From contig JAGATV010000059.1 in assembly GCA_017621075.1 (NCBI GenBank), positions 1 through 64,000 of the forward strand: DNA of 64,000 bases, written 5' to 3'. Below the pieces are notes generated by a model. That model saw only the letters and a list, made by a program, of their open reading frames with translations. It had not been told where the DNA came from and ran no database searches. Below, in pieces: positions 8,315 to 34,018 of the stretch (positions within the stretch are counted from its first letter, which is position 1; each line of letters starts with the position of its first letter). Origin of the DNA: Lachnospiraceae bacterium (GTDB taxonomy: Bacteria > Bacillota > Clostridia > Lachnospirales > Lachnospiraceae). Position numbers and translations under genes: made by a program.

Positions 8315-9001
8315 ATGGCGTCTAAAAAATATTATGCAGTAAAAAAAGGAAAGAATACGGGAATCTTTTTCAACTGGGAGGAGTGCAGGCTTTCTGTGGA
8401 CGGTTTCCCCGGAGCGGAGTACAAAGGCTTTTCTTCCCGGGAGGAGGCAATGCGGTATCTGGGTATGGAGCAGTCTGAGGACTCTGAAGGGTTGGAACCT
8501 GCGGATATTCCGCCGGAGGGAAGGCTTCTTGCTTATGTGGACGGAAGCTATGAGGATTCCTTGAAAAAGTATGCCTTTGGCTGTGTCTTTATCCTGCCGG
8601 ATGGGCGGATCTACACAGAATACGGAAACGGTGATAACCCCCAGTCTCTGCAGCATCGCAATGTGACAGGAGAGATGCTGGGGGCTATGTATGCTGTCAG
8701 GACGGCCATGAAAAACAGTTTTCAGGAACTGGAGATCCGTTATGATTACGAAGGCATTGAAAAGTGGGTCACGGGCGAATGGCGCAGCAGGACGGAACTG
8801 ACACAGAAATATGCTCAGGCTATGCGGGAGTGGAGTAAGGGTATCCGTATCCTTTTTTGCAAAGTGACCGCCCACAGCAATGTGCGGTTTAATGAACTGG
8901 CGGACGCACTGGCCAAGGAAGGTCTGGAGTGCGGGGATGGAGTGCCTCCCGTAAAGATGTTAGAGGATATGAAATTATATGGAACAGATTCGGCTGAATA
9001 A
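8315..9001 (+). CDS. rnhA: Ribonuclease H with N-terminal hybrid-binding domain
   Basis: 228 residues. Residues 4-48 (KKYYAVKKGKNTGIFFNWEEC, GFSSREEAMRYL) form the viroplasmin-like domain that binds RNA-DNA hybrids in eukaryotic-type RNase H1. The catalytic RNase H domain carries D76 (AYVDGSY), E120 (TGEMLGA), D144 (RYDYEGIEKW) and D197 (NELADALAKEG), the complete acidic set. It removes RNA from RNA-DNA hybrids. The ribosome site is weak. The 3' end overlaps the next gene by 23 bases. Confidence 0.92.
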   Translation: MASKKYYAVKKGKNTGIFFNWEECRLSVDGFPGAEYKGFSSREEAMRYLGMEQSEDSEGLEPADIPPEGRLLAYVDGSYEDSLKKYAFGCVFILPDGRIYTEYGNGDNPQSLQHRNVTGEMLGAMYAVRTAMKNSFQELEIRYDYEGIEKWVTGEWRSRTELTQKYAQAMREWSKGIRILFCKVTAHSNVRFNELADALAKEGLECGDGVPPVKMLEDMKLYGTDSAE

Positions 9002-9734
9002 ATATCTGGCCCGTTGCGGGGTATGTTCAAGAAGGGATGCGGACAGACTGATCGAACAGGGAGCGGTACAGATCAACGGTCAGGTGGCCAAGGTGGGGCA
9101 GACCGTGTGCGGAACAGAGGCGATCACCGTAAATGGGCGGGTGGTCCCCGGCAGACAGCAGGCAAAGGTTCTGGCGTTTTATAAGCCTGTGGGCATTGTC
9201 TGCACGGAAAAAGATCCCCATGCAGAAAAAAAGATCCATGATCTGATACGATATCCGGTGCGGTTAACTTATGCAGGCCGTCTGGACAAGGATTCGGAGG
9301 GACTGTTGATCTTAACCAATGACGGAGATCTGATCAACGCTATGATGCGTGGGGCAAACAGACATGAAAAAGAGTATGTGGTCAAGGTGGATAAAGAAAT
9401 AACACCTGATTTTTTAGATAAGATGGCAGAGGGCATTTATTTAAAGGAATTGGACCTTACCACCAGGCCTTGTGAGATTGTAAAATTGGGAAAATTCACT
9501 TTTCGAATAATTTTGACTCAGGGAGTCAATAGACAGATCAGAAGAATGTGCCAATCCTGTGGCTATGAGGTAAAGAGCCTCAAAAGAATCCGGGTGATGA
9601 ATATTTCCCTGGGCAGTTTAAGGCCCGGAGAATATCGGGAATTGTCAGGGGAAGAGCTGGATGCCTTGTATCAGGCGGCAGGCAGAGCGGATCATCAAAG
9701 GGAAAATCTCCCAAACTTAAACAAGAAGTTGTAG
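8979..9734 (+). CDS. rluF: RluF/RsuA-type pseudouridine synthase
   Basis: 251 residues. An S4 RNA-binding domain (residues 4-50, IRLNKYLARCGVCSRRDADRL) is followed by the RsuA/RluB/E/F catalytic domain. The catalytic Asp lies in the motif AGRLDKDSEGLLILTNDG, and the TQGVNRQIRRMC block is also conserved. The sequence looks most like RluF (23S rRNA, loop near helix 74), but subfamily cannot be fixed by eye. It overlaps the RNase H gene and lies just before ligA, giving a small nucleic-acid maintenance operon. Confidence 0.88.
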   Translation: MEQIRLNKYLARCGVCSRRDADRLIEQGAVQINGQVAKVGQTVCGTEAITVNGRVVPGRQQAKVLAFYKPVGIVCTEKDPHAEKKIHDLIRYPVRLTYAGRLDKDSEGLLILTNDGDLINAMMRGANRHEKEYVVKVDKEITPDFLDKMAEGIYLKELDLTTRPCEIVKLGKFTFRIILTQGVNRQIRRMCQSCGYEVKSLKRIRVMNISLGSLRPGEYRELSGEELDALYQAAGRADHQRENLPNLNKKL

Positions 9735-9757
9735 GACTCAGAAAGCAGAGGTACAAG

Positions 9758-11719
9758 ATGCAGTCTTCCAAAATAGAAAGAATGAAATATCTGGTGGAGA
9801 CCCTGAACCGGGCGGCAGAGGCATATTATGCCAAGGATCAGGAGCTCATGAGCAATTTTGAATATGACAGACTCTATGATGAATTGGAGGCTTTAGAGCA
9901 GGAGTGTGGTGTAACACTGGCCAACAGCCCGACTGTAAAGGTGGGTTTTGAAGCTGTGGATGAGCTGCCCAAGGAGCGTCATGAAAGCCCGATGCTTTCC
10001 TTGGGGAAGACCAAGAGCCGGGAAGAATTGCGGGAATGGCTGCAAGGAAATCCTGCAATTTTGAGTTGGAAATTGGACGGACTCACTATTGTATTGACTT
10101 ATCGTGAAGGAAAACTTGCAAAAGCAGTTACCCGGGGAAACGGTGAGATCGGTGAGGTCATCACCAATAATGCAAAGACTTTCAAGAATCTGCCATTATC
10201 CATTGCCTATCAGGGAGAATTGATCTTAAGGGGTGAGGCCGTCATCAGTTATCCTGATTTTGAGAAGATCAATCAGGAGATCGAGGATGTGGAGGCAAAA
10301 TATAAGAATCCCAGAAATCTGTGCAGTGGTTCCGTGCGCCAGTTGAACAATGAGATCACGGCCAGGCGGAATGTGAGGTTTTATGCGTTCTCGCTGGTAA
10401 AGGCAGAAGGAGTGGATTTTCACAATTCCAGAATGGCGCAGTTTGAGTTTTTAAAGGAACAGGGCTTTGAGGTGGTGGAACATCAACTGGTGACGGAGGA
10501 TACCATCCTTTCTGCCATTGAAGGGTTTGCGGAGAAAGTGGAGCATTATGAGATCCCTTCCGACGGATTGGTGCTGACCTATGAAGATATCGCTTACGGA
10601 CAGTCCTTAGGCAGGACAGCAAAGTTTCCCAGGCATTCCATTGCTTTTAAGTGGGCAGATGAATTGCGGGAGACAACCTTAAGAAAGATCGAGTGGAGCG
10701 CCAGCAGGACGGGGCTGATCAATCCCGTGGCGATCTTTGATCCTGTGGAACTGGAGGGAACTACGGTAAGCCGTGCCTCCGTCCATAATATCAGCATCCT
10801 GCGGGGGCTCAAACTGGGAATCGGTGACAGGATCACTGTTTATAAGGCAAACATGATCATTCCGCAGATTGCAGAAAATCTTACAGGGAGCGATTCCGTG
10901 GAGATCCCGGCGCTCTGTCCCGTGTGCGGGCAACCCACCCGGATCAGACAGATCAATGAGGTGCAGTCTCTGTATTGTGTGAACGAGGACTGGGCTGCCA
11001 AGAAGATCAAATCCTTTACGCTGTTTGTCAGCAGGGATGCCATGAATATCGATGGGCTTTCCGAGGCAACTCTGGAAAAGTTTATTGATCGGGGATTTAT
11101 CCGTGAATTTGCGGATCTGTTCCATCTTGAGGATTACAAAGACGAGATCATCCATATGGAAGGATTCGGCGAGAAGTCCTACAACAATCTGATATCCGGC
11201 ATTGATCTGGCCCGTAACACTACGCTTCCAAGGCTGATTTACGGTTTGGGGATCGCCAATATCGGTGTGGCCAATGCCAAGATGCTGTGCCGCTATTTTG
11301 ACTATGATCTGGACCGGATGCAACAGGCATCCGTAGAGACGTTAAGCGCCATCGAGGGCGTGGGAGAGGTCATTGCTTCCGCATTTGTGGATTTCATGAA
11401 GGAAGAAAAGAACCGTGCCAGGATCAGTAATCTTATGAAGGAGCTGAACATCGAGACTCCCCGGTTGGATGCAGAAAGCCGGAATCTGGAAGGTCTTGTA
11501 TTTGTGATCACCGGAAGTTTAAACCATTATGCCAGTCGTAATGATTTGAAGGAGCTGATCGAGCAGCGGGGCGGGAAGGTTACGGGAAGCGTTACCGGCA
11601 AGACTACCTGTCTGATCAACAATGACAGTACATCCACGTCGACTAAGAATAAGAAGGCCAAGGAATTGCAGGTGCCTATCCTGACAGAAGACCAATTCCT
11701 GGAACAATACATGCAGTAG
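9758..11719 (+). CDS. ligA: NAD+-dependent DNA ligase LigA, divergent zinc site
   Basis: 653 residues, slightly shorter than the usual ~670. Order: Ia domain (EYDRLYDELEALE), adenylation domain with nucleophile K105 in SWKLDG, OB fold (GIGDRITVYKANMIIPQI), zinc-finger region, HhH domains (GFGEKSYNNLISGI, IEGVGEVIASAF) and a C-terminal BRCT domain from about residue 577 (LEGLVFVITGS). The zinc finger shows C387, C390 and C407, but the fourth expected Cys about six residues later is absent: LYCVNEDWAAKK. The enzyme seals nicks in DNA using NAD+. It is the only ligase in the window. The start has a weak AGAGG site. Confidence 0.93.
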   Translation: MQSSKIERMKYLVETLNRAAEAYYAKDQELMSNFEYDRLYDELEALEQECGVTLANSPTVKVGFEAVDELPKERHESPMLSLGKTKSREELREWLQGNPAILSWKLDGLTIVLTYREGKLAKAVTRGNGEIGEVITNNAKTFKNLPLSIAYQGELILRGEAVISYPDFEKINQEIEDVEAKYKNPRNLCSGSVRQLNNEITARRNVRFYAFSLVKAEGVDFHNSRMAQFEFLKEQGFEVVEHQLVTEDTILSAIEGFAEKVEHYEIPSDGLVLTYEDIAYGQSLGRTAKFPRHSIAFKWADELRETTLRKIEWSASRTGLINPVAIFDPVELEGTTVSRASVHNISILRGLKLGIGDRITVYKANMIIPQIAENLTGSDSVEIPALCPVCGQPTRIRQINEVQSLYCVNEDWAAKKIKSFTLFVSRDAMNIDGLSEATLEKFIDRGFIREFADLFHLEDYKDEIIHMEGFGEKSYNNLISGIDLARNTTLPRLIYGLGIANIGVANAKMLCRYFDYDLDRMQQASVETLSAIEGVGEVIASAFVDFMKEEKNRARISNLMKELNIETPRLDAESRNLEGLVFVITGSLNHYASRNDLKELIEQRGGKVTGSVTGKTTCLINNDSTSTSTKNKKAKELQVPILTEDQFLEQYMQ

Positions 11720-11733
11720 GAGGAACTTTTGAC

Positions 11734-12675
11734 ATGCCAATCAAGACACAGAGTGATCTGCCGGCAAAAGAAATACTGGAAAATGAAAATATATTTGTCA
11801 TGGATGAGTCCCGTGCCATACATCAGGATATCCGCCCGCTTCAAGTGTTGATACTGAATCTCATGCCTGTAAAGCAGGATACGGAATTGCAGCTTTTACG
11901 AGCACTTTCCAACAGTCCGCTGCAGGTGGATGTGACCTTTATGAATACCAGGAGCCATGTTTCCAAAAATACATCTGCCAATCATCTGAACAGATTCTAT
12001 ATTTCTTTTGAGGAGGTCCGGGATCGAAAATTTGACGGAATGATCGTCACCGGGGCGCCGGTGGAGGATATTGCCTTTGAAGAGGTAGATTACTGGGAGG
12101 AGATTTGTGAGATCTTTGACTGGGCAGAGACTCATGTAACTTCCACGCTGCATATCTGTTGGGCGGCTCAGGCTGGATTTTACCATTATTACGGAATCAA
12201 TAAGAAGCAGCTCCCCCAAAAGCTGTTTGGTGTTTATGAACATAAGGTGTCCAACAGAAAAATACCCCTGGTAAGAGGGTTTGACGATATTTTCCTGGCG
12301 CCACACAGTCGTCATACCGAGACTCCGGCAGCGGATATCCATGCATGCAAGGAGTTGACGGTATTGGCGGAATCACCGGTGGCAGGAGTGTTTTTGGCCA
12401 TTGCCGAAAACGGCAGGAAGATTTTTGTAAACGGACATCCGGAGTATGACAGATACACTCTGGACAAGGAGTACCACAGGGATCTTAACAAGGGAATTCC
12501 CATCCAGTTGCCTTACAATTATTATCCCCAGGACAATGCCGGGGAAAGACCTCTTTTACAGTGGAGGTCCCACAGCAATAATCTGTACAGCAACTGGTTG
12601 AATTATTACGTTTATCAGGTGACGCCTTATGATCTGGATTTGATAGATGAGAATTGTTTCGGAATGTGGATTTGA
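11734..12675 (+). CDS. metA: Homoserine O-acetyltransferase (MetA type)
   Basis: 313 residues, typical MetA length. The catalytic Cys is C142 in LHICWAAQAGF; the His/Glu pair lies in VNGHPEYDRYTL. Residue 111 is Glu (GAPVEDIAFEEVDYW). In characterised MetA enzymes Glu at this position selects acetyl-CoA and Gly selects succinyl-CoA, so acetylation is predicted. The product O-acetylhomoserine can feed the MetB-like enzyme encoded at 20289. It starts 15 bases after the ligA stop with GGAGG upstream. No SAM riboswitch or T-box precedes it. Confidence 0.93.
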   Translation: MPIKTQSDLPAKEILENENIFVMDESRAIHQDIRPLQVLILNLMPVKQDTELQLLRALSNSPLQVDVTFMNTRSHVSKNTSANHLNRFYISFEEVRDRKFDGMIVTGAPVEDIAFEEVDYWEEICEIFDWAETHVTSTLHICWAAQAGFYHYYGINKKQLPQKLFGVYEHKVSNRKIPLVRGFDDIFLAPHSRHTETPAADIHACKELTVLAESPVAGVFLAIAENGRKIFVNGHPEYDRYTLDKEYHRDLNKGIPIQLPYNYYPQDNAGERPLLQWRSHSNNLYSNWLNYYVYQVTPYDLDLIDENCFGMWI

Positions 12676-12756
12676 CCGTACCATGCGTAAATAAACCGTT
12701 AAGATTTCTCCAAAGCGCTTGCAGGATATGGCAAAAAATGCTATTTTTCTTATAAA

Positions 12757-12860
12757 ATAAGAGGGAGTAGCCGGCACTCATCTGAGTGGGCGCGATATCG
12801 TCAATACGATTTTTGGAAGAAAAATCCGGTTCGTGACTAAGCGGCGAGACTTTTGTTGTC
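12757..12860 (+). promoter_or_regulatory. yybP-ykoY (Mn2+) riboswitch
   Basis: The aptamer landmarks are in order: GGGAGTAGC (12763-12771), a hairpin CACTCATCTGAGTG, the conserved CGTCAATACGA loop region, a hairpin GGATTTTT-like arm (TTTTTGGAAGAAAAATCCGG), then GACTAAGCGGCGAGACTT. The layout matches the B. subtilis ykoY/yybP Mn2+-sensing RNAs. The 3' strand of the closing helix is shared with a following terminator, so metal binding should favour read-through into the exporter gene. The landmarks are seen; the ligand comes from knowledge of the class. Confidence 0.82.
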
Positions 12861-12888
12861 AGTAGGACAACAGAAGTCTCGCTTTTTT
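12844..12888 (+). terminator. Riboswitch-controlled intrinsic terminator
   Basis: A 17-bp near-perfect stem pairs 12844-12860 (GCGAGACTTTTGTTGTC) with 12866-12882 around the loop AGTAG, followed by six Ts at 12883-12888. Its 5' strand overlaps the end of the aptamer, as expected for an ON switch. Confidence 0.88.
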
Positions 12889-12916
12889 GCGTACTCTCTG
12901 CAAAGGAGGAAATCAC

Positions 12917-13846
12917 ATGGAGATCTTATTACAGTGTGGATTATTGGTACTGGGGTTTGTGATGTTGGTAAAAGGAGCAGACTGGTTCGTGGAGGGCGTG
13001 GCCCAGATCGCGGACCGGTTCGGGGTTCCGCAGTTGGTGATCGGGCTTACCATTGTAGCCATGGGAACCAGTGCGCCGGAGGCTGCAGTCAGCATTACTG
13101 CGGCATTGAAGGGCAGTGCAGAGATCACCATCGGCAATATTGTGGGGAGCAATATCCTGAATATCCTGATCATCCTGGGACTGACAGCTGCCATCGTGGC
13201 TATCCCGGTGGCAAAATCTACGGTGCGCTATGAAATACCCTATATGATACTGATCACTTTGCTGTTGTTGGGAGTAGGCTATACCGGAAATGTAGTAAGC
13301 TATGGAGAAGGCATCCTTCTTTGGGCGGCATTCTTATGTTATCTTGGTTATCTGTTCCTGATGGCAAAGAAAAATAAGGAAGAAGTGGTCACGGAGAAGC
13401 CCAAACCCCTCTGGCAGCTTTTGATCGCAGCAATAGCAGGCCTCATCCTTGTGGTGTGGGGAAGTGATGTCACAGTCGGTGCAGCCACTGTCATCGCAGA
13501 AAAAATAGGCATGAGTGAGCGTTTTATCGGACTTACCATTGTGGCCCTGGGAACTTCCCTTCCGGAGCTGTTCACCTCCGTATCTGCCGCCATAAAGGGC
13601 AAGGCAGATATTGCCATCGGCAACATCGTGGGCAGCAATATCTTCAATATCCTGTTTGTGGTGGGTACTACGGCCCTGATCACTCCTGTGGTGTTTGTGC
13701 CGAAGTTTATCGTGGATACCGCTGTTGCTATCGCAGCGGCAGTGCTGTTGCTTGTGTGCCTTTGGCGGAAGCGGAAGCTTACCAGGCCGGCAGGTATCTT
13801 GATGTTGGTGTGTTACGGCATCTATTTTGGATATCTGCTGCAATAG
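12917..13846 (+). CDS. CaCA-family cation/sodium exchanger
   Basis: 309 residues, mostly membrane helices. The two inverted alpha repeats typical of the CaCA family are clear: LTIVAMGTSAPEAAVSITAA and GNIVGSNILNIL in the first half, LTIVALGTSLPELFTSVSAA and GNIVGSNIFNIL in the second. These hold the ion-binding Glu and Asn/Ser residues. Family members such as YrbG exchange Ca2+ (or related cations) for Na+ or H+. ATG 12917 has AAGGAGG nine bases upstream. Control by a Mn2+ riboswitch suggests a role in Mn2+ or mixed divalent export, which is inference. Confidence 0.88.
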   Translation: MEILLQCGLLVLGFVMLVKGADWFVEGVAQIADRFGVPQLVIGLTIVAMGTSAPEAAVSITAALKGSAEITIGNIVGSNILNILIILGLTAAIVAIPVAKSTVRYEIPYMILITLLLLGVGYTGNVVSYGEGILLWAAFLCYLGYLFLMAKKNKEEVVTEKPKPLWQLLIAAIAGLILVVWGSDVTVGAATVIAEKIGMSERFIGLTIVALGTSLPELFTSVSAAIKGKADIAIGNIVGSNIFNILFVVGTTALITPVVFVPKFIVDTAVAIAAAVLLLVCLWRKRKLTRPAGILMLVCYGIYFGYLLQ

Positions 13847-13893
13847 GAAATCCCGTGCCCCCAAAATAGACAGATTGGAGAACCATAAAGTAG

Positions 13894-13922
13894 TGGCAAA
13901 TGAATGCGGGATATTATATAAT
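13894..13922 (+). promoter_or_regulatory. Possible promoter for cyclophilin gene
   Basis: TATAAT at 13917-13922 has a weak partner TGGCAA 17 bases upstream. It lies 53 bases before the chosen start of the cyclophilin lipoprotein gene. Confidence 0.35.
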
Positions 13923-13974
13923 GAAACATGGAGCCCAAAGGCCCCGGATCAAAGGAGTGGAAAGGATACGCAAA

Positions 13975-14649
13975 ATGATGAAAAGATTATGTTTCAAACT
14001 GGCAGCGCTCTGTGCCATCACCGGGTTTCTTCTGACAGGCTGCGGCAGTGCCGGGCAGGGAAAGGATTTGGAAGCATCCCAGGGTACAGAGGCGGAAAAA
14101 GAAGTTCAGACTTCTCAGACAGAGGATAAGGAGGGAGAGGACCTTCTTTCAGGCAAACATCATGTAAAGATCCATATCAAGGACAAGGGTGAGATCCTGG
14201 TGGAACTGGACGCAGATCATGCACCTGTTACGGTGACCAATTTCATCAATCTGGCAGAATCCGGTTTTTATGACGGGCTGACCTTCCATCGTATCATCAA
14301 CGGATTCATGATGCAGGGCGGTGATCCTTTGGGTACAGGCATGGGCGGCTCCGAACAGAAGATCGTGGGTGAATTTTCCAACAATGGGGTGGACAACCCG
14401 CTTTCCCATACAAGAGGCGCCATCTCCATGGCAAGATCTGCAGCCAGTATGGACAGTGCAAGTTCTCAGTTCTTTATCGTGCATCAGGACTGTGTCAGCT
14501 TAGACGGCGATTATGCGGTATTTGGTTATGTGACAGAGGGAATGGATATTGTGGATGATATTTGTGAAAATACCACAGGACAGGACGTGAACGGTGTTGT
14601 TCCGGTGGAGAACAGGCCTGTCATTGAAAGTATAGAAGTGGTGGATTGA
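13975..14649 (+). CDS. Cyclophilin-type peptidyl-prolyl isomerase lipoprotein
   Basis: 224 residues. A lipoprotein signal (LCAITGFLLTGCGS, lipobox LTGC) is followed by a short acidic linker and a cyclophilin domain. The domain shows FHRIINGFMMQGGDPLGTGMGG (the catalytic Arg lies in FHRI) and SQFFIVHQD. It should speed prolyl isomerisation of exported proteins on the outer face of the membrane. ATG 13975 (next to a second ATG) has AAAGGA upstream; a longer frame from 13900 is not supported. It is a single gene ended by a clear terminator. Confidence 0.9.
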   Translation: MMKRLCFKLAALCAITGFLLTGCGSAGQGKDLEASQGTEAEKEVQTSQTEDKEGEDLLSGKHHVKIHIKDKGEILVELDADHAPVTVTNFINLAESGFYDGLTFHRIINGFMMQGGDPLGTGMGGSEQKIVGEFSNNGVDNPLSHTRGAISMARSAASMDSASSQFFIVHQDCVSLDGDYAVFGYVTEGMDIVDDICENTTGQDVNGVVPVENRPVIESIEVVD

Positions 14650-14655
14650 CAGGAA

Positions 14656-14689
14656 AAGACAGTCTGGTTTTGCCGGGCTGTCTTTTTTT
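14656..14689 (+). terminator. Intrinsic terminator after cyclophilin gene
   Basis: AAGACAGTCTGG pairs with CCGGGCTGTCTT (two G-T wobbles) around TTTTG and runs into seven Ts, seven bases after the stop codon. Confidence 0.85.
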
Positions 14690-14711
14690 GGAAAAAATTT
14701 TCAAATAGGTA

Positions 14712-14740
14712 TTGACGTCTGAAGAAATAGGTGTTAATAT
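14712..14740 (+). promoter_or_regulatory. Promoter of leader peptide / ABC transporter operon
   Basis: TTGACG (14712-14717), a 17-base spacer, and TAATAT (14735-14740). The surrounding bases (GTATTGAC ... GTGTTAA ... TAAACCTAC) closely match those of the metB-like gene promoter at 20118-20146, pointing to shared control. Confidence 0.65.
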
Positions 14741-14751
14741 CTATACAACAT

Positions 14752-14774
14752 AAACCTACTAAAACAGTATGTTT
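14752..14774. promoter_or_regulatory. Shared operator, copy 1 (probable Rrf2-type site)
   Basis: AAACCTAC, seven bases, GTATGTTT: a dyad with 7 of 8 paired positions, located just downstream of the -10 element. The same 8-7-8 architecture recurs at 20152-20174 and a related dyad lies in the Rrf2 gene promoter at 20054-20073. Binding here would block transcription start. The regulator is inferred from position and autoregulation logic. Confidence 0.65.
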
Positions 14775-14797
14775 ATATGAATAAAGGAGGAAGAGTT

Positions 14798-14893
14798 ATG
14801 AAGATCCAGAGAATGGTAATGGCAGGATGTTGTATGAACGGTATGGGATGCACAGGCAGTATGTGTTGCTGTATGTCCTGTTGTTCGTTATAG
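14798..14893 (+). CDS. 31-residue Cys-rich leader peptide
   Basis: ATG 14798 has an excellent ribosome site (AAAGGAGG, eight bases upstream). The peptide starts MKIQRMVMAGCCMNGMG and has nine Cys in total, including three consecutive Cys codons (TGT TGC TGT) and another adjacent pair near the C-terminus, before TAG. A terminator-like hairpin follows about 50 bases later, then an amino-acid ABC transporter operon. The arrangement suggests an attenuator in which ribosome stalling at Cys codons reports low charged Cys-tRNA. Other readings (a small metal- or thiol-binding peptide, a secreted peptide) are possible. There is no signal sequence. I know of no named family for it. Confidence 0.65.
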   Translation: MKIQRMVMAGCCMNGMGCTGSMCCCMSCCSL

Positions 14894-14939
14894 AATACGG
14901 AAATAAGTGAATCGGGCTTGAAGGATATCAGATATTACC

Positions 14940-14964
14940 AGCAGGCTTGAGGGCCTGTTTTTTT
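14940..14964 (+). terminator. Attenuator-type hairpin before transporter operon
   Basis: CAGGC (14942-14946) pairs with GCCTG (14953-14957), extendable by a G-T and an A-T pair, and is followed by seven Ts ending at 14964. It lies between the Cys-rich peptide and the transporter genes, so it must be partly read through for the operon to be expressed. Similar short blocks (GGGCTTGAAGG at 14914 and AGGCTTGAGGG at 14943) are directly repeated. Confidence 0.6.
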
Positions 14965-15021
14965 GTGCTTTTTATCAAAAATCACTCTGAAGACAGAGGA
15001 CAGAAAAGGAGAATATGAATT

Positions 15022-15972
15022 ATGAAAAAGAATTTTTTAAAAATAGTTTCCGTTGGTTTGGCATCCGCATTGGCATTAAGCCTGGCAGGCTGCGGCTCTG
15101 AAGCTGCATCGGCAGGAGACAGTGGGGCAGAAAAGACAACCACTGTGACGGCTGAGCGCACAGAAGTATCTGCAGGCACAGAGACAGCAGGCACTGGAGA
15201 GGTTCAGAAAATAGTGGTAGCCCACACCAATTATTATGTGCCGTATGATTTTGAGGACGAGAATGGAAATTCCGACGGATATGAGGTGGCGGTAATGAAA
15301 GCGGTTGATGAACTGCTGCCACAGTATGAATTTGAATTCGTACCCACCACCGACGATGATCTGCTGATCGGCGTGGAGTCGGGAAAATATGATGTGGGTA
15401 CAAAGGGAGTGTGGTGGACCCAGGCGCGTTCTGAGACTTACATCTTCCCGAAACATTATATCGGAGCAAGCATCATCGGCATCCTTACCAGGGCAGAAGA
15501 CGCTGATAAGTATACGGACCTGGAGGCCTTTGCAAAGGACGGAGGAAGGCTTGTACCCATAGCTCCACAGAACGCACAATACAATATTATCGAAAACTTT
15601 AATGCCGCTCATCCGGATACGCCCATCGAGCTTGCAGCCGCTGACCAGTTCCAGTTGTCGGACGCTTATCAGTGGGTGCGTGAAGGAAGATATGATGCCT
15701 ACTTCGAGATCAAGACCAGCTATGAGAACAATGTGGTGAATGAAGGCGGAGAGTATCATGATTTTGCGGAGGAACTGGCGTATGCTGCCTATGAAGGAAT
15801 CCCTACATGGCCTTTGTTCAACAGCAGCAATCAGGAGTTGGCGGACGCCTACGACGAGGCATGGGAACAGCTTAATGCCGATGGAACACTGGAGAAGCTG
15901 GCGATAGAATATTTTGGATACAGCCTCTTTGACTATGTACCGGAAGGATACCAGATCGGCGACCAGTTATAA
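15022..15972 (+). CDS. Amino-acid ABC transporter substrate-binding lipoprotein
   Basis: 316 residues. A signal peptide with lipobox (LALSLAGCGS) precedes a Ser/Thr/Glu-rich linker and a family 3 periplasmic-binding-type domain. That domain shows YYVPYDFEDENGNSDGYEVAVMKA, then GVESGKYDVGTKGVWWTQ and later EGRYDAYFEIKTSYE. The domain captures a polar amino acid. Cystine is the most likely ligand because the operon has a Cys-codon leader and sulfur-related genes, but this is inference. It is the first structural gene of the operon, with AGGAG upstream. Confidence 0.85.
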   Translation: MKKNFLKIVSVGLASALALSLAGCGSEAASAGDSGAEKTTTVTAERTEVSAGTETAGTGEVQKIVVAHTNYYVPYDFEDENGNSDGYEVAVMKAVDELLPQYEFEFVPTTDDDLLIGVESGKYDVGTKGVWWTQARSETYIFPKHYIGASIIGILTRAEDADKYTDLEAFAKDGGRLVPIAPQNAQYNIIENFNAAHPDTPIELAAADQFQLSDAYQWVREGRYDAYFEIKTSYENNVVNEGGEYHDFAEELAYAAYEGIPTWPLFNSSNQELADAYDEAWEQLNADGTLEKLAIEYFGYSLFDYVPEGYQIGDQL

Positions 15973-16007
15973 GTGACCGTCAGACAGGAATAAGGAGGTG
16001 CCGGACC

Positions 16008-16712
16008 ATGCGTCCCTTTCATCCGGAATTTATTTTCACAGCGTTGAGACAGATTCTCCCTTATCTTTGGGTGACCATTGCGACCATGGCAGGAACGGTT
16101 TTCTTCGGAAGTCTTGCAGGAATCCTTCTGGCGAGGGCCAAGATCCGCAGAGGGCCGGTGTTGCGGGCATTGTCGGAGATCTATATATATGTGACACGGT
16201 GTATCCCATCCATCGTCATGCTGTTCATCGTTTACTATGGATTGCCGGAATTTATGCTGGCATTCGGTATCGATATCAACAATTTCAGTAAGGCGTTCTT
16301 TGTGATCGTCACATTTTCGATCCTGTTTGCTGCGAATATGGCTGAGGTATTCCGCGCAGCTTATGAATCCATCGATCCGGGACAGAGAGAGGCGGCCCTC
16401 AGTGCAGGCCTGAGTGAGTGGCAGGCGTTTTACCGCATTATCCTGCCACAGTGTATCGTGGTGGCCCTGCCCAATTTCACCAATGCACTGGTAAACCTGA
16501 TGAAAGAGGGATCTTTGTCATATACCATAGGCATGTTGGACGTGATGGGCAAAGGACAACTGATGATCGGTATCAATCACGGATCTTACAGCCTGGAGGT
16601 CTATCTGGCATTGTCACTGATATACTGGGCAATGACCCTGGTAATAGAGCATGGTTTCGGGACCCTGGAAAAGCATCTTTCCAAGGGCAGGAAAATCGTG
16701 GCGGCATCCTAG
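16008..16712 (+). CDS. Amino-acid ABC transporter permease
   Basis: 234 residues with several membrane helices and the His/Glu/Cys-transporter permease signature. The EAA loop, which docks the ATPase, is EAALSAGLSEWQAFYRIILPQCI. It is similar to TcyB/GlnP-type permeases. ATG 16008 has AAGGAGGTG upstream. A second, different permease follows immediately, so the channel is probably a heterodimer. Confidence 0.88.
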   Translation: MRPFHPEFIFTALRQILPYLWVTIATMAGTVFFGSLAGILLARAKIRRGPVLRALSEIYIYVTRCIPSIVMLFIVYYGLPEFMLAFGIDINNFSKAFFVIVTFSILFAANMAEVFRAAYESIDPGQREAALSAGLSEWQAFYRIILPQCIVVALPNFTNALVNLMKEGSLSYTIGMLDVMGKGQLMIGINHGSYSLEVYLALSLIYWAMTLVIEHGFGTLEKHLSKGRKIVAAS

Positions 16713-16722
16713 GAGGGAAAAA

Positions 16723-17436
16723 ATGAAGCTGAATACGGACTTTATGATAAAAACATTCTTGGCGGCTTTAAAAGGCATTCCCGTTACGCTGGAAATCACA
16801 GTAGTCACCTTATTGTTGTCTGCTCCTATTGCGTTCTTTATGGCTTTGAAAAGATTGCACAAAAAAGGGATCGGGAGCAGGATCACAGCCGGATATGTCT
16901 CTTTTGTCCGGGGGACTCCCATTGTATTGCAGATCCTGTTCCTGTACAGTCTCCTGCCTTCTCTGCTGAACTATCTGCTGAACCGGGTATTGGAGCTCGA
17001 CTTTGATGTGTTTGGAGTTCCGCCGATCCTGTATGCCTTTGCTGTGTTCGGACTCAACACTACGGCCGTGCTTTCGGAGGTGTTCCGCTCCGCACTGCTG
17101 ACAGTGGGACACGGACAGATGGAGGCAGCTATCTCCGTAGGCTTGTCCAGACGGCAGGCATATCTGCGGATCATCATTCCCCAGGCCATGGTCTCCGCAC
17201 TCCCCAATATCTGCAATACCACGGTGAACCTGTTGAAAAGCACCTCTCTTGCATTTATGATGACCGTCAAGGATATCATGGCAATCGCGAAGGTGCAGGC
17301 GGCATACGGATACAATTATATCGAGGCCTACCTGGTGGTCCTTCTGATCTACATCCTGCTCTGCACCCTGGTACAGCTGCTGTTCAAGGCCGTGGAAAGA
17401 TATCTGTCATCCTATAAAAAACTGGTAACTTGTTAG
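16723..17436 (+). CDS. Second amino-acid ABC transporter permease
   Basis: 237 residues, another polar-amino-acid permease with the EAA loop [23 protein letters not shown] and a conserved N-terminal region ([23 protein letters not shown]). ATG 16723 has GGAGGG close upstream, ten bases after the previous stop; the frame is open further upstream but overlaps the first permease. It partners the gene at 16008. Confidence 0.88.
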
Positions 17437-17453
17437 AAGGAGAGGTCTGTCAA

Positions 17454-18209
17454 ATGTTAGAAGTGAAAGATATCCATAAATCATATAGCGGTAACGAGAT
17501 ATTAAAGGGAGTCTCCCTCAAAGTGGAAAAGGGGGATATCATCGTGATCTTAGGTCCCAGCGGTTCCGGAAAGACTACCTTGTTGCGATGCCTCAATTTT
17601 TTGGAGCGCGCAGAAAAGGGAAGCATTGATTTTGACGGCATTCACACAGAGTTTAAGTCCGCCACCGGACATCAGATCAATGAGATCAGAAAGAGGACCG
17701 GTTTTGTATTCCAGAATTACAACCTGTTCGCCAACAAGACCGCTCTGCAGAATGTGACGGAAGGACTCATTGTGGCCAGAAAGGTCCCTAAAAAAGAGGC
17801 CGTTGACAGGGCAAAGCAGGCCCTGGATAAAGTGGGATTGTCAGACCGGTATGATTATTACCCGTCACAGCTTTCCGGAGGCCAGCAGCAACGTGTGGGG
17901 ATTGCCCGCGCCATTGCCGTGAATCCGGATGTGATCCTGTTCGATGAACCTACTTCCGCACTTGATCCGGAATTGGTGGGAGAGGTGTTAAATGTCATGA
18001 AATCCCTGGCGGAGGAAGGAGCTACCATGGTGGTGGTGACTCATGAGATGGGATTTGCGCAGGATGTGGCAAGCCGTGTGGTCTTTATGGACGGCGGAAC
18101 TATCGTGGAGGAGGGGACACCCCATGAGATTTTTTCCAGGCCAAGGGATCCCCGCACCATACAATTCTTACGGAGAATCCTGCGGGAGGATTATGAGTAC
18201 AGTATTTGA
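17454..18209 (+). CDS. Amino-acid ABC transporter ATP-binding protein
   Basis: 251 residues. Walker [11 protein letters not shown]-loop in VFQNYNLF, signature [14 protein letters not shown], Walker [14 protein letters not shown] and the switch His in VTHEMGFA are all intact. The sequence is of the GlnQ/TcyN type. The start at 17454 has AGAAGGAG upstream. It powers uptake through the two preceding permeases. Confidence 0.93.
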
Positions 18210-18238
18210 ACAATGACAGGAAAGGAGGAAGCGTCAAG

Positions 18239-19051
18239 ATGGATCTGGGATTGCAGGGGAAGCGTGTGGTGGTGACCGGAGGAAGTAAAGGGATCGGTTA
18301 TGCCATTGCGGAAGAATTCCTGAAGGAGGGATCCCATGTCGTGATTTCCGGTCGGAATCCCAAGGACTTGGAAGATGCGGTAAAACGGCTGCAGCAAAAG
18401 GGAGGAGGAACCATACAAGGCTTTGCACTGGACGGCTCCCGGGAGCTTGAAGTGTATGAGCTGGCCCGCCTGGCTGCAGAGGATACCGGCAATATCGATG
18501 TATGGATCAATAATATCGGCACCAACAGGCCCAGAGCAGGGGAATTGTACACGGAGGAAGAATTGGATTTTCTCATCAGTGCCTGCTTTAAATCCGCAGT
18601 TTTCGGAAGTCAGGCCGCCTTTACCTATATGAAGGACGGCGGAGGCAGTATCGTGAATATTGCGTCCCTGGCGGCCAGAAGTGCCACCTGTGGCCGTTCC
18701 ACCATATATGGGGCACTGAAATCCGCCATTCTGGGGTTAACCAACACTACGGCCGGAGAGTATGCGGCTTACGGGATCAGGGTAAACGCTGTGCTTCCCG
18801 GATATACCAGGACCCCTTTGGTGGAGGGGAGCTTTTCGAAAGAGGCGTTGACAAGGCTGTTAAAGGACAATCTGACCGGAAGAATGGCGGAGCCGGCAGA
18901 AATCGCAAGGCCGGTGGTATTTCTGGCGAGCGATGCGGCCAGCTATATCACGGCGGCATCTTTGGAGGTTTCCGGTGGACATGCAAGAGTGCTGAACCCA
19001 TGGTATTCCTTTGAAAAGAGGCAGTCGGAAGAACTGTCCGGGAAAGAGTAA
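18239..19051 (+). CDS. Short-chain dehydrogenase/reductase in cysteine operon
   Basis: 270 residues of the SDR fold. The NAD(P) loop is VVVTGGSKGIGYAIA, the NNAG-type motif reads NNIGTN, and the catalytic Ser and Tyr-x3-Lys lie in IVNIASLAA and YGALKSAI. An oxidoreductase acting on a carbonyl or hydroxyl group is certain at family level; the substrate is unknown. Its position after a cystine-type transporter and before an ATC-hydrolase-like gene suggests a role in processing an imported sulfur compound. ATG 18239 has AAAGGAGG upstream. Confidence 0.85.
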   Translation: MDLGLQGKRVVVTGGSKGIGYAIAEEFLKEGSHVVISGRNPKDLEDAVKRLQQKGGGTIQGFALDGSRELEVYELARLAAEDTGNIDVWINNIGTNRPRAGELYTEEELDFLISACFKSAVFGSQAAFTYMKDGGGSIVNIASLAARSATCGRSTIYGALKSAILGLTNTTAGEYAAYGIRVNAVLPGYTRTPLVEGSFSKEALTRLLKDNLTGRMAEPAEIARPVVFLASDAASYITAASLEVSGGHARVLNPWYSFEKRQSEELSGKE

Positions 19052-19094
19052 CACAAAAGAAAACATCAAAATATAAGAAGCGGAGGAAATAGAA

Positions 19095-19574
19095 ATGTCA
19101 AGTTTGTGCAAAAAGATTTCAGAAGAAGCAAAAGGATTGAAAGCGGGGATCGCAGACCGTGCGATATGGTTCCACCTGTTGATCCAGGCGGCAGAAAACC
19201 AGGGAGTGGATATTGAAAAGCTTACGGATGATGCCATTTTTACTTTTGGAGCAAACCTGTACCGGGACAAGAAGGCTGAGACGGCAAAGGATTTTGTGGA
19301 TCTGATGACAGAGCCGGGGCCCGGCAGGGAGGCTTTCGCACAGGAAGTGATCCTGTCAGGAGAAGATCATGCCGTGGCACATTTCCATGCATGCCCTCTG
19401 GTAGAAGCATGGAGAGATTATGGGCTCAGTGAAGAACGCATCTCTTATCTGTGCGATCTGGCCAGCAAGGGTGATTTTGGCAGGGCCAGCAATTTCCCCA
19501 ATCTGGAGATTTCCTTCCCCCAAAAGATCGCTCACGGGGATGCGGTATGCGAGCTGGATGTGGTAAAGAAATAG
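19095..19574 (+). CDS. ATC hydrolase family protein (L-2-amino-thiazoline-4-carboxylate)
   Basis: 159 residues. The conserved parts resemble the L-2-amino-thiazoline-4-carboxylic acid hydrolase family: HFHACPLVEAWRDYGLSEE, YLCDLASKGDFG, and the C-terminal KIAHGDAVCELDV. In the classical pathway ATC is opened to a carbamoyl-cysteine and then cysteine. The many relatives in Clostridia are not biochemically tested, so the exact substrate is open. The operon context (Cys-codon leader, cystine-type transporter, SDR) fits a cysteine-releasing role. AGCGGAGG lies upstream of ATG 19095. It converges on the Rrf2 gene. Confidence 0.75.
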   Translation: MSSLCKKISEEAKGLKAGIADRAIWFHLLIQAAENQGVDIEKLTDDAIFTFGANLYRDKKAETAKDFVDLMTEPGPGREAFAQEVILSGEDHAVAHFHACPLVEAWRDYGLSEERISYLCDLASKGDFGRASNFPNLEISFPQKIAHGDAVCELDVVKK

Positions 19575-19595
19575 CCTGCTGCGCAAGGCAGTAAG

Positions 19596-20027
19596 TCAGA
19601 TCACATAGTCATCCCCGGGGTCCTCCTGATATAGAAGATCGGCAAGGGTGATATTATCCAGATGATCATTGATCACCCGGTAAAGGCCCTGCCACATCCC
19701 CAGTGTCTTGCAAAAGGGCTTTCTTGGGCAGGTATCCTGGGGAGAAGCAAGGCAGGATACCGGTGCAAGAGAATTCTCCGTTACCTGTAAAATGCTACCG
19801 ATGGTATATTGGTCGGGAGATTTTGTCAGGCGGTAGCCTCCGCCTTTTCCGCGCAGTCCGGTCAAAAACTTATTTTTGACCAGGAGCTTGATAACCGCTT
19901 CCAGATACTTTTCGGATATTTCCTGCCGTCTGGCAATGTCTTTTAATGGAATATAGTCTTCTGCCTGGTGCTCCGCCAGATCTATCATGATACGGAGAGC
20001 ATAGCGCCCTTTGGTTGAAACCAGCAT
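19596..20027 (-). CDS. Rrf2-family transcriptional regulator with three Cys
   Basis: 143 residues. The N-terminal winged HTH (STKGRYALRIMIDLAEH, then ISEKYLEAVIKLLVKNKFL and GKGGGYRL) is typical of Rrf2/IscR/CymR. Three Cys at 92, 100 and 106 (SCLASPQDTCPRKPFC) sit where IscR has its Fe-S ligands (92, 98, 104), so a cluster is possible. CymR-type members control cysteine genes in Firmicutes. Its promoter carries a dyad like those before the transporter operon and the metB-like gene. I infer that it represses itself and both flanking units. GGAGG lies eight bases upstream of the start. Confidence 0.88.
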   Translation of the reverse strand: MLVSTKGRYALRIMIDLAEHQAEDYIPLKDIARRQEISEKYLEAVIKLLVKNKFLTGLRGKGGGYRLTKSPDQYTIGSILQVTENSLAPVSCLASPQDTCPRKPFCKTLGMWQGLYRVINDHLDNITLADLLYQEDPGDDYVI

Positions 20028-20053
20028 ATATGATTCCTCCTTTCTACTTTATT

Positions 20054-20073
20054 AACCTATTATACAATAGGGT
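20054..20073. promoter_or_regulatory. Shared operator, copy in Rrf2 promoter
   Basis: AACCTAT, six bases, ATAGGGT: a dyad with 6 of 7 paired positions that covers the -10 element of the Rrf2 gene promoter. The half-site AACCTA matches the operators at 14752 and 20152, with one base less spacing. Confidence 0.55.
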
Positions 20074-20088
20074 AAATAGGAAAATCAA
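20059..20088 (-). promoter_or_regulatory. Promoter of Rrf2 regulator gene
   Basis: On the minus strand: TTGATT (20088-20083), an 18-base spacer, and a perfect TATAAT (20064-20059), about 32 bases before the start codon. Confidence 0.7.
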
Positions 20089-20117
20089 TTTGAAATTTGG
20101 GAAAATTAAAAAAAGTA

Positions 20118-20146
20118 TTGACAATATCTTCCGGCAGTGTTAAATT
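20118..20146 (+). promoter_or_regulatory. Promoter of metB-like gene
   Basis: TTGACA (20118-20123), a 17-base spacer, and TAAATT (20141-20146). The context GTATTGAC ... GTGTTAA ... TAAACCTAC is shared with the promoter at 14712. Confidence 0.65.
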
Positions 20147-20151
20147 ATAGT

Positions 20152-20174
20152 AAACCTACAGAAAAGGTATGAAT
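20152..20174. promoter_or_regulatory. Shared operator, copy 2
   Basis: AAACCTAC, seven bases, GTATGAAT. The left half is identical to the operator at 14752 and the spacing is the same; the right half pairs less well (5 of 8). It lies immediately downstream of the -10 element. Confidence 0.55.
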
Positions 20175-20186
20175 TAAGTGAAGAAA

Positions 20187-20252
20187 ATGTTATGCGCTTT
20201 GTGGCAGATGTATGACCTGCTTTTTTTATGCCGAAATTACGGCGGCCCATGA
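20187..20252 (+). CDS. Possible 21-residue upstream peptide
   Basis: ATG 20187 to TGA 20250-20252 encodes a small peptide starting MLCALWQMYDLLFLC, in the leader of the metB-like gene. The upstream GTGAAGA is only a fair ribosome site. Inside it lies a weak hairpin (GCAG 20204-20207 with CTGC 20217-20220) followed by seven Ts. By analogy with the Cys-rich leader at 14798 it might be regulatory, but it could equally be chance. Confidence 0.3.
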   Translation: MLCALWQMYDLLFLCRNYGGP

Positions 20253-20288
20253 GACAAAAGAGGCAGCCGATACAGGAGGTATGACGAC

Positions 20289-21437
20289 ATGGCTTATGCA
20301 ACGGAAACGATCTGCGTTCAGGGGAGTGAGGAACGCACTGACTGCTATGGGGCGGTCAGTGTCCCCATTTATCAATGTGCTGCCTTTGCTCATCCTGCTT
20401 TGGGAAAGAGCACGGGATATGACTATTCCAGAGTGTCCAATCCCACCAGGGATGCTCTGCAGGATACGGTAGCTGCGCTTGAACATGGCAGCAGATCACT
20501 GGCATTTTCTACCGGAATGGCGGCGATCACCGCAGTGATGGAACTGTTTTCACCGGGCGACCATATCGTGGCCACCGATGATCTGTACGGGGGCACCCCG
20601 CGCCTGTGGAACAGCATCAGTCAGAAAAACGGTCTGCAGGTAAGCTGTGTGGACACTTCCCGGCTGGAAGAGCTGAAGGGGGCCATCAGACCAAATACCA
20701 AGGCAATATTCTTGGAAACGCCCACCAATCCCATGATGAAGGTGACGGATATCAGGGCAGTTTCCCGGATCGCCAAAGAGCACGGATGTCTGGTGATCGT
20801 GGACAATACCTTCCTTTCCCCTTATTTTCAGAATCCTTTGGATCTGGGTGCGGATGTGGTGGTCCACAGCGGGACCAAATATCTGGGGGGACACAATGAT
20901 GTGCTTGCCGGCTTTGCGGTTGTCAAGGAGGAAGCACTGGGAGATAAGCTGAACACCATATATAAGACTACGGGAGCCTGTCTTTCCCCCATGGATAGCT
21001 GGCTGGTGTTAAGGGGGATCAAGACCCTCGCCCTGAGAATGGAACAGCATCAGAAGAATGCTCTTGCAATCGCCGAATGGCTGAAAGAGCAGCCTCTTGT
21101 CAGGGAGGTGTATTACATAGGTCTTAGCGGGCGGCCGGACAGGGAGCTGATAGATCGGCAGTGCAGGGGCTATGGCGGTATGATCTCTTTCCGGGTGGCA
21201 TCGGAAGCAGTGGCGGTAACACTGTTGGAGAGCGTGAGACTGATACGGTTTGCGGAAAGTCTGGGCGGTGTGGAGAGCCTGATGACTTATCCCATGAGGC
21301 AGACCCATGCGGAGGTGCCTGAGGAAACCAGAAAAGCGCTGGGAATCGATGAAACGCTCCTTCGCATGTCAGTGGGCATCGAGAGTGCACAGGATCTGAT
21401 CCTGGATCTGGAGCAGGCTTTCAGGCAGGCGGGATGA
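20289..21437 (+). CDS. metB: Cystathionine gamma-synthase/lyase family PLP enzyme
   Basis: 382 residues, class of Cys/Met metabolism PLP enzymes. Landmarks: YDYSRVSNPTRDALQ, GMAAITAVMELFSPGDHI, LETPTNPMMKVTDI, the Schiff-base Lys in HSGTKYLGGHNDVLAG, and a C-terminal SVGIESAQDLILDLEQA. It may join O-acetylhomoserine with cysteine (gamma-synthase) or split cystathionine (gamma-lyase); sequence by eye does not decide. The operon partner is a PatB-like beta-lyase and metA lies at 11734, which together would complete transsulfuration to homocysteine. GGAGG lies 11 bases before the ATG. Confidence 0.88.
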   Translation: MAYATETICVQGSEERTDCYGAVSVPIYQCAAFAHPALGKSTGYDYSRVSNPTRDALQDTVAALEHGSRSLAFSTGMAAITAVMELFSPGDHIVATDDLYGGTPRLWNSISQKNGLQVSCVDTSRLEELKGAIRPNTKAIFLETPTNPMMKVTDIRAVSRIAKEHGCLVIVDNTFLSPYFQNPLDLGADVVVHSGTKYLGGHNDVLAGFAVVKEEALGDKLNTIYKTTGACLSPMDSWLVLRGIKTLALRMEQHQKNALAIAEWLKEQPLVREVYYIGLSGRPDRELIDRQCRGYGGMISFRVASEAVAVTLLESVRLIRFAESLGGVESLMTYPMRQTHAEVPEETRKALGIDETLLRMSVGIESAQDLILDLEQAFRQAG

Positions 21438-21493
21438 GATCGGCCAAGAGAATCAAAAAAGATCGAAGGAAACTGGTAAAGGGTGACACGCAG

Positions 21494-22660
21494 ATGAAAT
21501 ATGATTTTGATAAGATAACGGACCGCAGAGGTACCAACAGCCTGAAATATGATTTTGCCGCAGAGCGCGGTAAGCCGGAGGATATCCTGCCTCTGTGGGT
21601 GGCGGATATGGATTTTCCGGTGGCGTATGAGATCACGCAAAGCCTGGAACGTGTGGTCCGGCATGGTATTTATGGATACAGTGAGGCAAAAGATTCTTAT
21701 TTTCAGGCAGTGGCATCCTGGATGGAAAAGCAGCATGACTGGAAGGTGGAGAAAGATTGGCTGGTAAAGACTCCCGGCGTGGTCTATGGGATCGCCGCTG
21801 CTATCCGGGCATTTACCCGGGAGGGAGACAGCATCCTGATTCAGAATCCGGTGTATTATCCCTTCAGTGAGGTGATCCGGGACAATGACAGGGTCCTGGT
21901 GGACAATACCCTGGTGGAGAAAGACGGAAAGTATACCATGGATTTTGAGGATATGGAACAGAAGATCAGGGAAAATCATGTCAAGCTGTTCATTTTGTGC
22001 AATCCCCACAATCCGGTGGGAAGGGTCTGGACCAGAGAAGAACTTCAGAAAGTGGGAGAGCTATGCCTGCAGTATGGTGTGCTAGTGGTCAGTGATGAGA
22101 TCCATCATGATTTTGTCTACCCGGGATACAGGCATCAGGTGTTTGCGGCACTGGACCCCCGTTTTCAAAAGATCACGGTGACCTGCACGGCGCCCAGTAA
22201 AACCTTCAATCTGGCGGGGCTGCAGGTGTCCAATATCTTTATTGCCGACAAAAAGCTGCGTTCTTTGTTCCGCAAAGAGATAGACCGTACCGGATACAGT
22301 CAGTTAAATACTTTCGGGCTGGTAGCCTGTGAGAGTGCATACAGGGACGGAGAAGAGTGGCTGACGCAGCTAAAGCAGTATCTTGGCGGCAATCTGGAGT
22401 TGGTGAGGAAGTTTGTTGCAGAAAGGCTTCCCGGTGTGCGCCTGGTAGAACCGGAAGGTACTTATCTGGTGTGGCTGGACCTGAGAGCACTGGGACTTAC
22501 GGAAAGAGAACTGGACCGGGCTGTGGTGGAGAAGGCAGGGCTTTGGCTGGACGGCGGCGGGATGTTCGGTGCCTGTGGGGAAGGTTTCCAGAGGATCAAT
22601 ATTGCCTGCCCCAGGTCGGTGCTTGAGGAAGCGTTGGAAAGGCTGACCAAAATTCTGTAA
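21494..22660 (+). CDS. patB: PatB/MalY-type cystathionine beta-lyase
   Basis: 388 residues, fold-type I aminotransferase class of the MalY/PatB group. It starts MKYDFDKITDRRGTNSLKYD, typical for the family. LPLWVADMDF, CNPHNPVGRVW, VVSDEIHHDFVY and the PLP Lys in TAPSKTFNLAGLQ are all present. It cleaves cystathionine (and cysteine) to homocysteine or H2S plus pyruvate and ammonia. ATG 21494 is preceded by AAAGGGTG, about 57 bases after the metB stop; the upstream open frame overlaps metB. Control is probably shared with metB. Confidence 0.9.
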   Translation: MKYDFDKITDRRGTNSLKYDFAAERGKPEDILPLWVADMDFPVAYEITQSLERVVRHGIYGYSEAKDSYFQAVASWMEKQHDWKVEKDWLVKTPGVVYGIAAAIRAFTREGDSILIQNPVYYPFSEVIRDNDRVLVDNTLVEKDGKYTMDFEDMEQKIRENHVKLFILCNPHNPVGRVWTREELQKVGELCLQYGVLVVSDEIHHDFVYPGYRHQVFAALDPRFQKITVTCTAPSKTFNLAGLQVSNIFIADKKLRSLFRKEIDRTGYSQLNTFGLVACESAYRDGEEWLTQLKQYLGGNLELVRKFVAERLPGVRLVEPEGTYLVWLDLRALGLTERELDRAVVEKAGLWLDGGGMFGACGEGFQRINIACPRSVLEEALERLTKIL

Positions 22661-22745
22661 ATATTCTAAAAGGTTTAGCTTGAGGTATAATTTTCCAACC
22701 TTGTCCATATACTGTAGTATATTATTACAAACAGGAGGCAGTAAT

Positions 22746-22985
22746 ATGGCAAGAGGACAGAGAAAGAGCATAGAAGAAAAAATCGCTGCAAAGCAGGAGC
22801 TGATCGATGCGTTGATGATCCGGGTGGAGTCAGAGAAGAGAGAGCTGGCCCAGTTGTACGAAGAAAAGAAACGTAAAGAGCTGGAAGCGGTAAGCGGGCT
22901 GATCACGGATGCGGGGCTTGAGCCTTCCGAGGTGGCCAGCATGCTGAAACAGTATATCGAGAGCCGCACAGCCACCGCCTCTTAG
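22746..22985 (+). CDS. Small charged coiled-coil protein, unknown
   Basis: 79 residues, almost entirely helical and charged: KSIEEKIAAKQELIDALM, then KRELAQLYEEKKRKELEA, ending in a short GLEPSEVASMLKQYIE segment. Heptad-like spacing suggests a coiled coil. ATG 22746 has an AGGAGG site, so translation is likely. I do not recognise a named family. It is a single gene ended by a strong terminator. It may be a nucleoid- or ribosome-associated factor, but nothing shows this. Confidence 0.6.
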   Translation: MARGQRKSIEEKIAAKQELIDALMIRVESEKRELAQLYEEKKRKELEAVSGLITDAGLEPSEVASMLKQYIESRTATAS

Positions 22986-23004
22986 GTCAGAAAAAAGATA
23001 GAAG

Positions 23005-23042
23005 AAAGCACTTGGGATCTTAGGGATCTCAAGTGCTTTTTA
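23005..23042. terminator. Bidirectional terminator
   Basis: AAAGCACTTG-GATC pairs with GATC-CAAGTGCTTT around a short loop (one G/T interior mismatch), with a T-run on the plus strand and a T-rich tract on the minus strand. It serves both the small coiled-coil gene and the convergent activase-like gene. Confidence 0.85.
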
Positions 23043-23046
23043 TGTA

Positions 23047-33703: not shown

Positions 33704-33722
33704 TATTTTCAATTGAATATGT

Positions 33723-33896: not shown

Positions 33897-34018
33897 GTAC
33901 AGAAACATTTGTTTCAGACCACGAGTAACTGGTTGTACATGAATTTGCAAAAGCAGGTTTTCCTGTGATGGACTCATCTTTCGGGAAATGCGGCTTTCGG
34001 CAGATTTGTTTTGTGTAT

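Follow-up and report, generated by a model that had tools for sequence, protein, structure and literature searches.

Short leader open reading frames (ORFs) rich in cysteine (Cys) codons are known from mycobacteria and, within the alphaproteobacteria, from the Rhodobacterales, as the initial annotation of the DNA analysed here also stated. The mycobacterial polycysteine small ORF (sORF) attenuators are short Cys-rich ORFs upstream of genes that they reportedly regulate according to cysteine (Canestrari et al. 2020, via PMC9094748), and in the Rhodobacterales the uORFC-8-2 motif upstream of cysS combines a tandem-Cys upstream ORF with a U-run terminator and a proposed ribosome-mediated attenuation (PMC8632094). 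Aminoacyl-tRNA synthetase genes of Firmicutes are described as mostly controlled by T-boxes and in no case by classical attenuation (PMC1262725). Leader-peptide attenuation in Firmicutes has been reported for the histidine leaders before hisS/hisZ paralogs of bacilli, presented by their authors as, so far as they knew, the first case of regular leader peptides beyond Proteobacteria and Actinobacteria (PMC2965389), and in the cysteine T-boxes of Clostridium perfringens low charging of tRNA-Cys relieves premature termination before cysteine uptake and synthesis genes (PMC2940859). The locus described here lies in a 64,000-nucleotide (nt) stretch from a Lachnospiraceae bacterium (GCA_017621075.1, contig JAGATV010000059.1, positions 1 to 64,000; hereafter the window), where a Cys-rich leader ORF and a terminator stand before a cystine-type ATP-binding cassette (ABC) importer operon. 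We regard this element as, with high probability, a ribosome-mediated transcription attenuator that senses the supply of cysteinyl-tRNA.

The leader ORF lies on the forward strand at 14798-14893, comprises 31 codons followed by TAG and would be translated into MKIQRMVMAGCCMNGMGCTGSMCCCMSCCSL. The initial annotation had counted nine Cys codons; there are eight (14828, 14831, 14849, 14864, 14867, 14870, 14879 and 14882). Its remaining description was accurate, namely the ORF length, the three consecutive Cys codons (14864, 14867, 14870), the strong ribosome site, a Shine-Dalgarno (SD) sequence AGGAGG at 14785-14790, 7 nt before the ATG, and the T-tailed hairpin between the ORF and the importer operon. 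Six internal methionine (Met) codons, the start codon excluded, are interspersed with the Cys codons. The terminator was detected by a simple scan and shuffle tests and consists of a hairpin at 14940-14959 with a T tract up to 14964. A simple consensus scan also revealed a promoter-like pair, TTGACG-17 nt-TAATAT, at 14712-14740; since shuffled regions yield about 1.2 promoter-like sites per region (and about 0.3 terminator-like ones), this match is weak when taken alone. In a scan of both strands of the whole 64 kb (four or more Cys, making up at least 13% of the residues, with a CC pair and an SD match of at least 4), the leader was the only SD-led Cys-rich short ORF. The overall stability of the 218-nt leader RNA is ordinary (folding z 0.14).

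Relatives of the binding-protein gene behind the leader were collected from 61 genomes (6 of 61 at an E-value of 1e-30 or better), from 397 genomes of the family (8 of 397 at 1e-45) and from public genome records (80 loci, the best 80 of 215). After removal of four exact duplicates from these 94 loci, 90 rows remained, which were merged into 75 groups of near-identical rows. Up to 2.2 kb upstream was searched for leaders, with the opposite strand as control. A strict SD-led Cys-rich leader was present in 20 of the 90 rows and 18 of the 75 groups, the window included, and not once on the opposite strand. Under relaxed criteria (at least three Cys, a CC, and MC or CCC) the numbers were 28 rows and 23 groups, compared to a single match on the opposite strand that reads as ordinary protein. 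The leaders counted as relaxed include eight true-looking ones below the strict Cys threshold (L039, L041, L052, L056, L059, L062, L072 and L091); for L063, the start codon was shifted upstream by hand. Carriers include Acetatifactor, Oribacterium, Marvinbryantia and other Lachnospiraceae, a Treponema and a Spirochaetaceae bacterium; locus L055 belongs to the cultured Oribacterium sp. C9. The gene directly behind the strict leader is the binding-protein gene in the window and eight further loci (L003, L004, L055, L069, L071, L075, L079, L098), a URO-D-like gene in nine (L049, L053, L057, L063, L064, L086, L088, L089, L090), and a dehydrogenase (L105) or an ATPase (L006) gene in the remaining two. 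The leader tracks the operon rather than one protein.

Two other searches did not contribute to these counts. The pattern TGYTGYNNNATGTGYTGY, run over the 61 genomes, occurred at 18 places in 17 genomes, none of which was judged to be an SD-led leader, most looking like other frames of coding genes, so that no weight can be given to its excess over the reversed control. A profile built from 15 strict leaders gave 10 matches in the 397 family genomes and missed the window's own genome, and thus cannot measure prevalence. Nine of these matches were rejected as leaders because each falls within a long ORF on either strand, and the best one (L123) is a leader ahead of a MetQ-type gene. As a separate observation, a short frame ending in MVMCCVMCCA, with no clear SD, was seen slightly upstream of a gene read by eye as rho (L022, G036:C12).

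A strict T-tailed hairpin within 180 nt of the stop codon follows 18 of the 20 strict leaders, compared to 4 of 400 shuffles, and a terminator stands behind 26 of the 28 relaxed leaders. For genes without a strict leader, it was found in 1 of 55 when measured from the chosen start codon; an earlier control on 68 leaderless rows gave four terminators, but used the match start, which is often inside the gene. In several otherwise dissimilar leaders (window, L003, L049, L071, L086), we noted that GTGC follows the T tract.

The strict leaders contain 18.1% Cys and 12.3% Met, compared to 0.91% and 2.13%, respectively, in the long ORFs found at these loci; Cys served as a selection criterion for this set and Met did not. 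ATG accounts for 86 of 700 in-frame codons and 27 of 1400 out-of-frame ones, and Met without Cys neighbours for 30 of 440 codons. Among 15 leader pairs with more than 40% identity, four close pairs were used for a comparison of individual sites, the unused ones being more distant pairs, the near-copy L086/L090 and the identical L089/L090. In these four pairs, 1 of 27 Cys and 1 of 15 Met sites had changed, compared to 35 of 98 other sites; more distant pairs showed more change at every type of site. Judged from these substitutions, the Cys and Met codons are under selection while their flanks drift. The initial annotation had named a lack of conservation of the ORF or its Cys codons in relatives as evidence against its reading; both are conserved.

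The same class of leader also occurs ahead of methionine-type (MetQ) importers. MetQ matches were found in at least 185 of the 397 family genomes, and 70 loci were examined (30 + 40; G351 among them, two at contig ends skipped), 10 of which carry such a leader. In these MetQ-linked leaders, a block inside the ORF, lying directly in front of a ribosome positioned at the Cys run, can pair with the terminator arm. This pairing shows compensatory changes, as seen in six of the 10 leaders that were chosen for a shared block; L194 supplied the pairing for this comparison, and L196 is misaligned at the second arm. One of the genes behind these leaders (L151, 542 amino acids) combines a family-3 binding domain with a MetQ/NlpA domain in a single lipoprotein, and other MetQ matches lie in open frames of similar length.

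For the cystine-type set, the RNA of 14 of the 18 terminator-bearing leaders (without L063, L075, L089 and L090) was folded with the ribosome placed at different positions. When the ribosome is placed at the first pair of Cys codons, a mean probability of 0.70 is predicted for upstream pairing of the terminator's 5' arm, compared to 0.51 for shuffles (p 0.0002); when it is placed at the stop codon, the values are 0.40 and 0.39 (13 loci, L064 being too short). The difference between the two positions has a p of 0.0024, and a rerun gave 0.0003 for the stalled position and 0.0033 for the difference. A signal dependent on ribosome position was also obtained by folding nine MetQ-linked leaders (no terminator was found for L150; eight in the stop test). 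These predicted folds point to an antiterminator that, at the level of the family, depends on the position of the ribosome. In the window, RNA folding gives a possible antiterminator at 14912-14950 on the forward strand, formed by UCGGGCUUG (14912-14920) and CAGGCUUGA (14942-14950), the latter of which overlaps the 5' arm of the terminator; this is a candidate for the pairing that would switch in the window RNA.

Based on these results, we propose that transcription begins near 14747, probably under the control of an Rrf2/CymR-type repressor at 14750-14776, and that a ribosome would load at the strong SD and translate the leader. With ample charged tRNA-Cys, the ribosome would proceed to the stop codon, whereupon the terminator (14940-14964) would form. 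When cysteine is short, the ribosome would stall on the Cys run, the RNA ahead would pair with the 5' arm of the terminator, and transcription would continue into the genes for the importer, the dehydrogenase and the ATC-hydrolase-family protein. The probable cysteine attenuator of the initial annotation is supported by the conservation of the class, the terminators and the compensated antiterminator before MetQ genes, with translation, stalling and the response to cysteine forming the inferred part. The leaders perhaps sense Met-tRNA as well as Cys-tRNA. With slightly less than even probability, they are joint sensors of sulfur amino acids: Met codons interspersed with Cys codons, often as Met-Cys-Cys, would stall the ribosome upon shortage of either charged tRNA, and a single leader class would coordinate import operons of both the cystine and the methionine type throughout Lachnospiraceae, in genomes that employ tRNA-reading T-boxes as well. 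The finding of MetQ-linked leaders with a compensated antiterminator raises the support for both attenuation and joint sensing.

Several results weigh against attenuation. Even under relaxed criteria, 62 of the 90 rows have no leader, and the two spirochaete leaders (L088, L105) have no terminator and are the two misses of the strict test, which also finds none behind three of the 10 MetQ-linked leaders. Of the 14 cystine-type loci, only four stand out at a level of no more than 4 in 100 shuffles, and L057, L064, L079 and L098 give no antiterminator signal. L063, left out as a relative of L053, falls below its shuffles (167/200), and replacing L053 by it weakens the signal to p 0.005 for the stalled position and 0.028 for the difference, which are also the upper ends of the ranges obtained when close relatives were swapped. 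In the MetQ-linked set, L159 retains the antiterminator with the ribosome at the stop codon, and further pair types in the compensation test were no more frequent than in shuffles (370/500). In the window, the predicted probability of the antiterminator is practically the same whether the ribosome sits at the Cys codons (0.72) or at the stop codon (0.73), and in the latter position the terminator is predicted to be least likely (0.13); the window's own RNA alone thus does not show the switch. The weaker L063 result and the unchanged share of Met argue against a higher confidence.

Other explanations of the element differ in what the ORF and the hairpin would do. The peptide itself might be functional as a small Cys/Met-rich metal- or redox-binding protein, with the hairpin merely lowering expression behind it. 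Such a product would fit the high Met content besides Cys and the retention of Met in close pairs, but the strict leaders, 23 to 47 amino acids long, share little beyond Cys and Met (26% mean column identity over 15 leaders), the window peptide has no NCBIfam match at E 0.01, and both the regular association with a terminator and the antiterminator arm borne by the MetQ-linked ORF itself speak against it; we consider a peptide function highly improbable. Very little probability also falls to a leader that, instead of an antiterminator/terminator switch, uses coupled translation or Rho-dependent polarity, mechanisms that have been proposed for certain Cys leaders of actinobacteria. It would accommodate the two spirochaete leaders, which lie close to the next gene, as well as the window, where folding does not resolve the switch pairing, but an intrinsic-type terminator accompanies each of the 18 strict leaders from Lachnospiraceae, and the antiterminator signal appears in both sets of leaders, with compensatory changes in one of them. 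The similar short leaders of the spirochaete loci (L088 4752-4829, L105 3998-4069) end in Cys runs; they perhaps represent a translation-level version or a transfer of the operon.

An Rrf2-type repressor at the promoter could also be the sole control, with the ORF incidental and the hairpin a decayed terminator. A 27-bp inverted repeat, ATAAACCTACTAAAACAGTATGTTTAT, is located at 14750-14776 on the forward strand just 3' of the -10 box and is a probable Rrf2/CymR-type operator, with 10 of 11 arm positions pairing and 0 of 100 shuffles as good. By eye, look-alike sites stand before L069, L037, L047, L007 and L105, and comparable ones directly before the gene in several leaderless relatives. In the inverted-repeat test, only the window, L003 and L069 among 20 were strong (0/100 shuffles each), the L003 repeat overlapping the -10 region of that locus; with 3 of 20, a common operator is not established. 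A motif sampler returned mixed registers and was discarded as evidence. An Rrf2-family regulator gene at 19596-20027 on the reverse strand faces the importer operon and matches the IscR and CymR models below their cut-offs (96.4 bits against the CymR cut-off of 195). From the sequence, an Rrf2/CymR-type repressor probably acts at 14750-14776, with this gene as candidate. As the only control it is extremely improbable, since the strand bias, the conserved Cys codons and the association with terminators are unexpected for an incidental ORF. Ribosome-mediated attenuation remains our preferred explanation, with the repressor as a probable further layer.

The operon behind the leader, on the forward strand, begins with a family-3 substrate-binding lipoprotein (15022-15972, Pfam PF00497), whose solved relatives in a PDB sequence search include amino-acid binders such as YtmK. 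It is followed by an ABC permease (16008-16712, best NCBIfam match cystine permease, below cut-off), a second ABC permease (16726-17436, start picked by eye inside the ORF 16651-17436), an ABC ATPase (17457-18209, best match the L-cystine ATPase TcyN with 323.8 bits, cut-off 406), a short-chain dehydrogenase (18233-19051) and a member of the L-2-amino-thiazoline-4-carboxylic acid (ATC) hydrolase family (19095-19574, Pfam PF14196, E 2.9e-12). In 74 of 91 rows (window counted twice), the cystine-type transporter has a URO-D-like protein in its neighbourhood, e.g. at 4893-5882 of L053; such a protein was not found at 9000-24000 of the window. The sole Rfam match at gathering score in the window is a cobalamin riboswitch (33713-33905, 104.2 bits) upstream of a 605-amino-acid ORF (34011-35828), by eye a cobaltochelatase-type lipoprotein, and of a further lipoprotein gene.

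The Met-Cys class in Lachnospiraceae is of a kind already described in mycobacteria and Rhodobacterales. In the literature searched, which leaves out the bulk of subscription papers and so cannot prove absence, none of the titles dealt with Cys or Met-Cys leaders of Lachnospiraceae or Clostridia. The mycobacterial sORFs are leaderless by the title of Canestrari et al. 2020, whereas the ORF here is SD-led and enriched in Met, and mycobacterial cys leaders showed no conserved terminator (PMC1262725), in contrast to the intrinsic terminator here. In the alphaproteobacterial uORFC-8-2, the conserved feature ahead of cysS is a tandem of two Cys codons (PMC8632094), whereas the present leaders have more Cys, usually mixed with Met, and precede cystine- and methionine-type import operons. 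The histidine leaders of bacilli concern another amino acid, other genes and another class (PMC2965389). The T-box of C. perfringens (PMC2940859) reads the tRNA without translation, and at the leader site here no Rfam family, T-boxes included, reaches its gathering score. In the window's genome as a whole there are 10 T-box matches, four of them above the cut-off, and the best one (L133, C16:24688-24962) precedes genes that by eye resemble cysE and cysS; the genome thus probably has a Cys T-box alongside the Cys leader. Recurring Met-Cys leaders and a probable Cys T-box in one genome place direct and ribosome-mediated reading of tRNA side by side, which makes it testable why operons differ in their sensor and whether one leader senses two amino acids.
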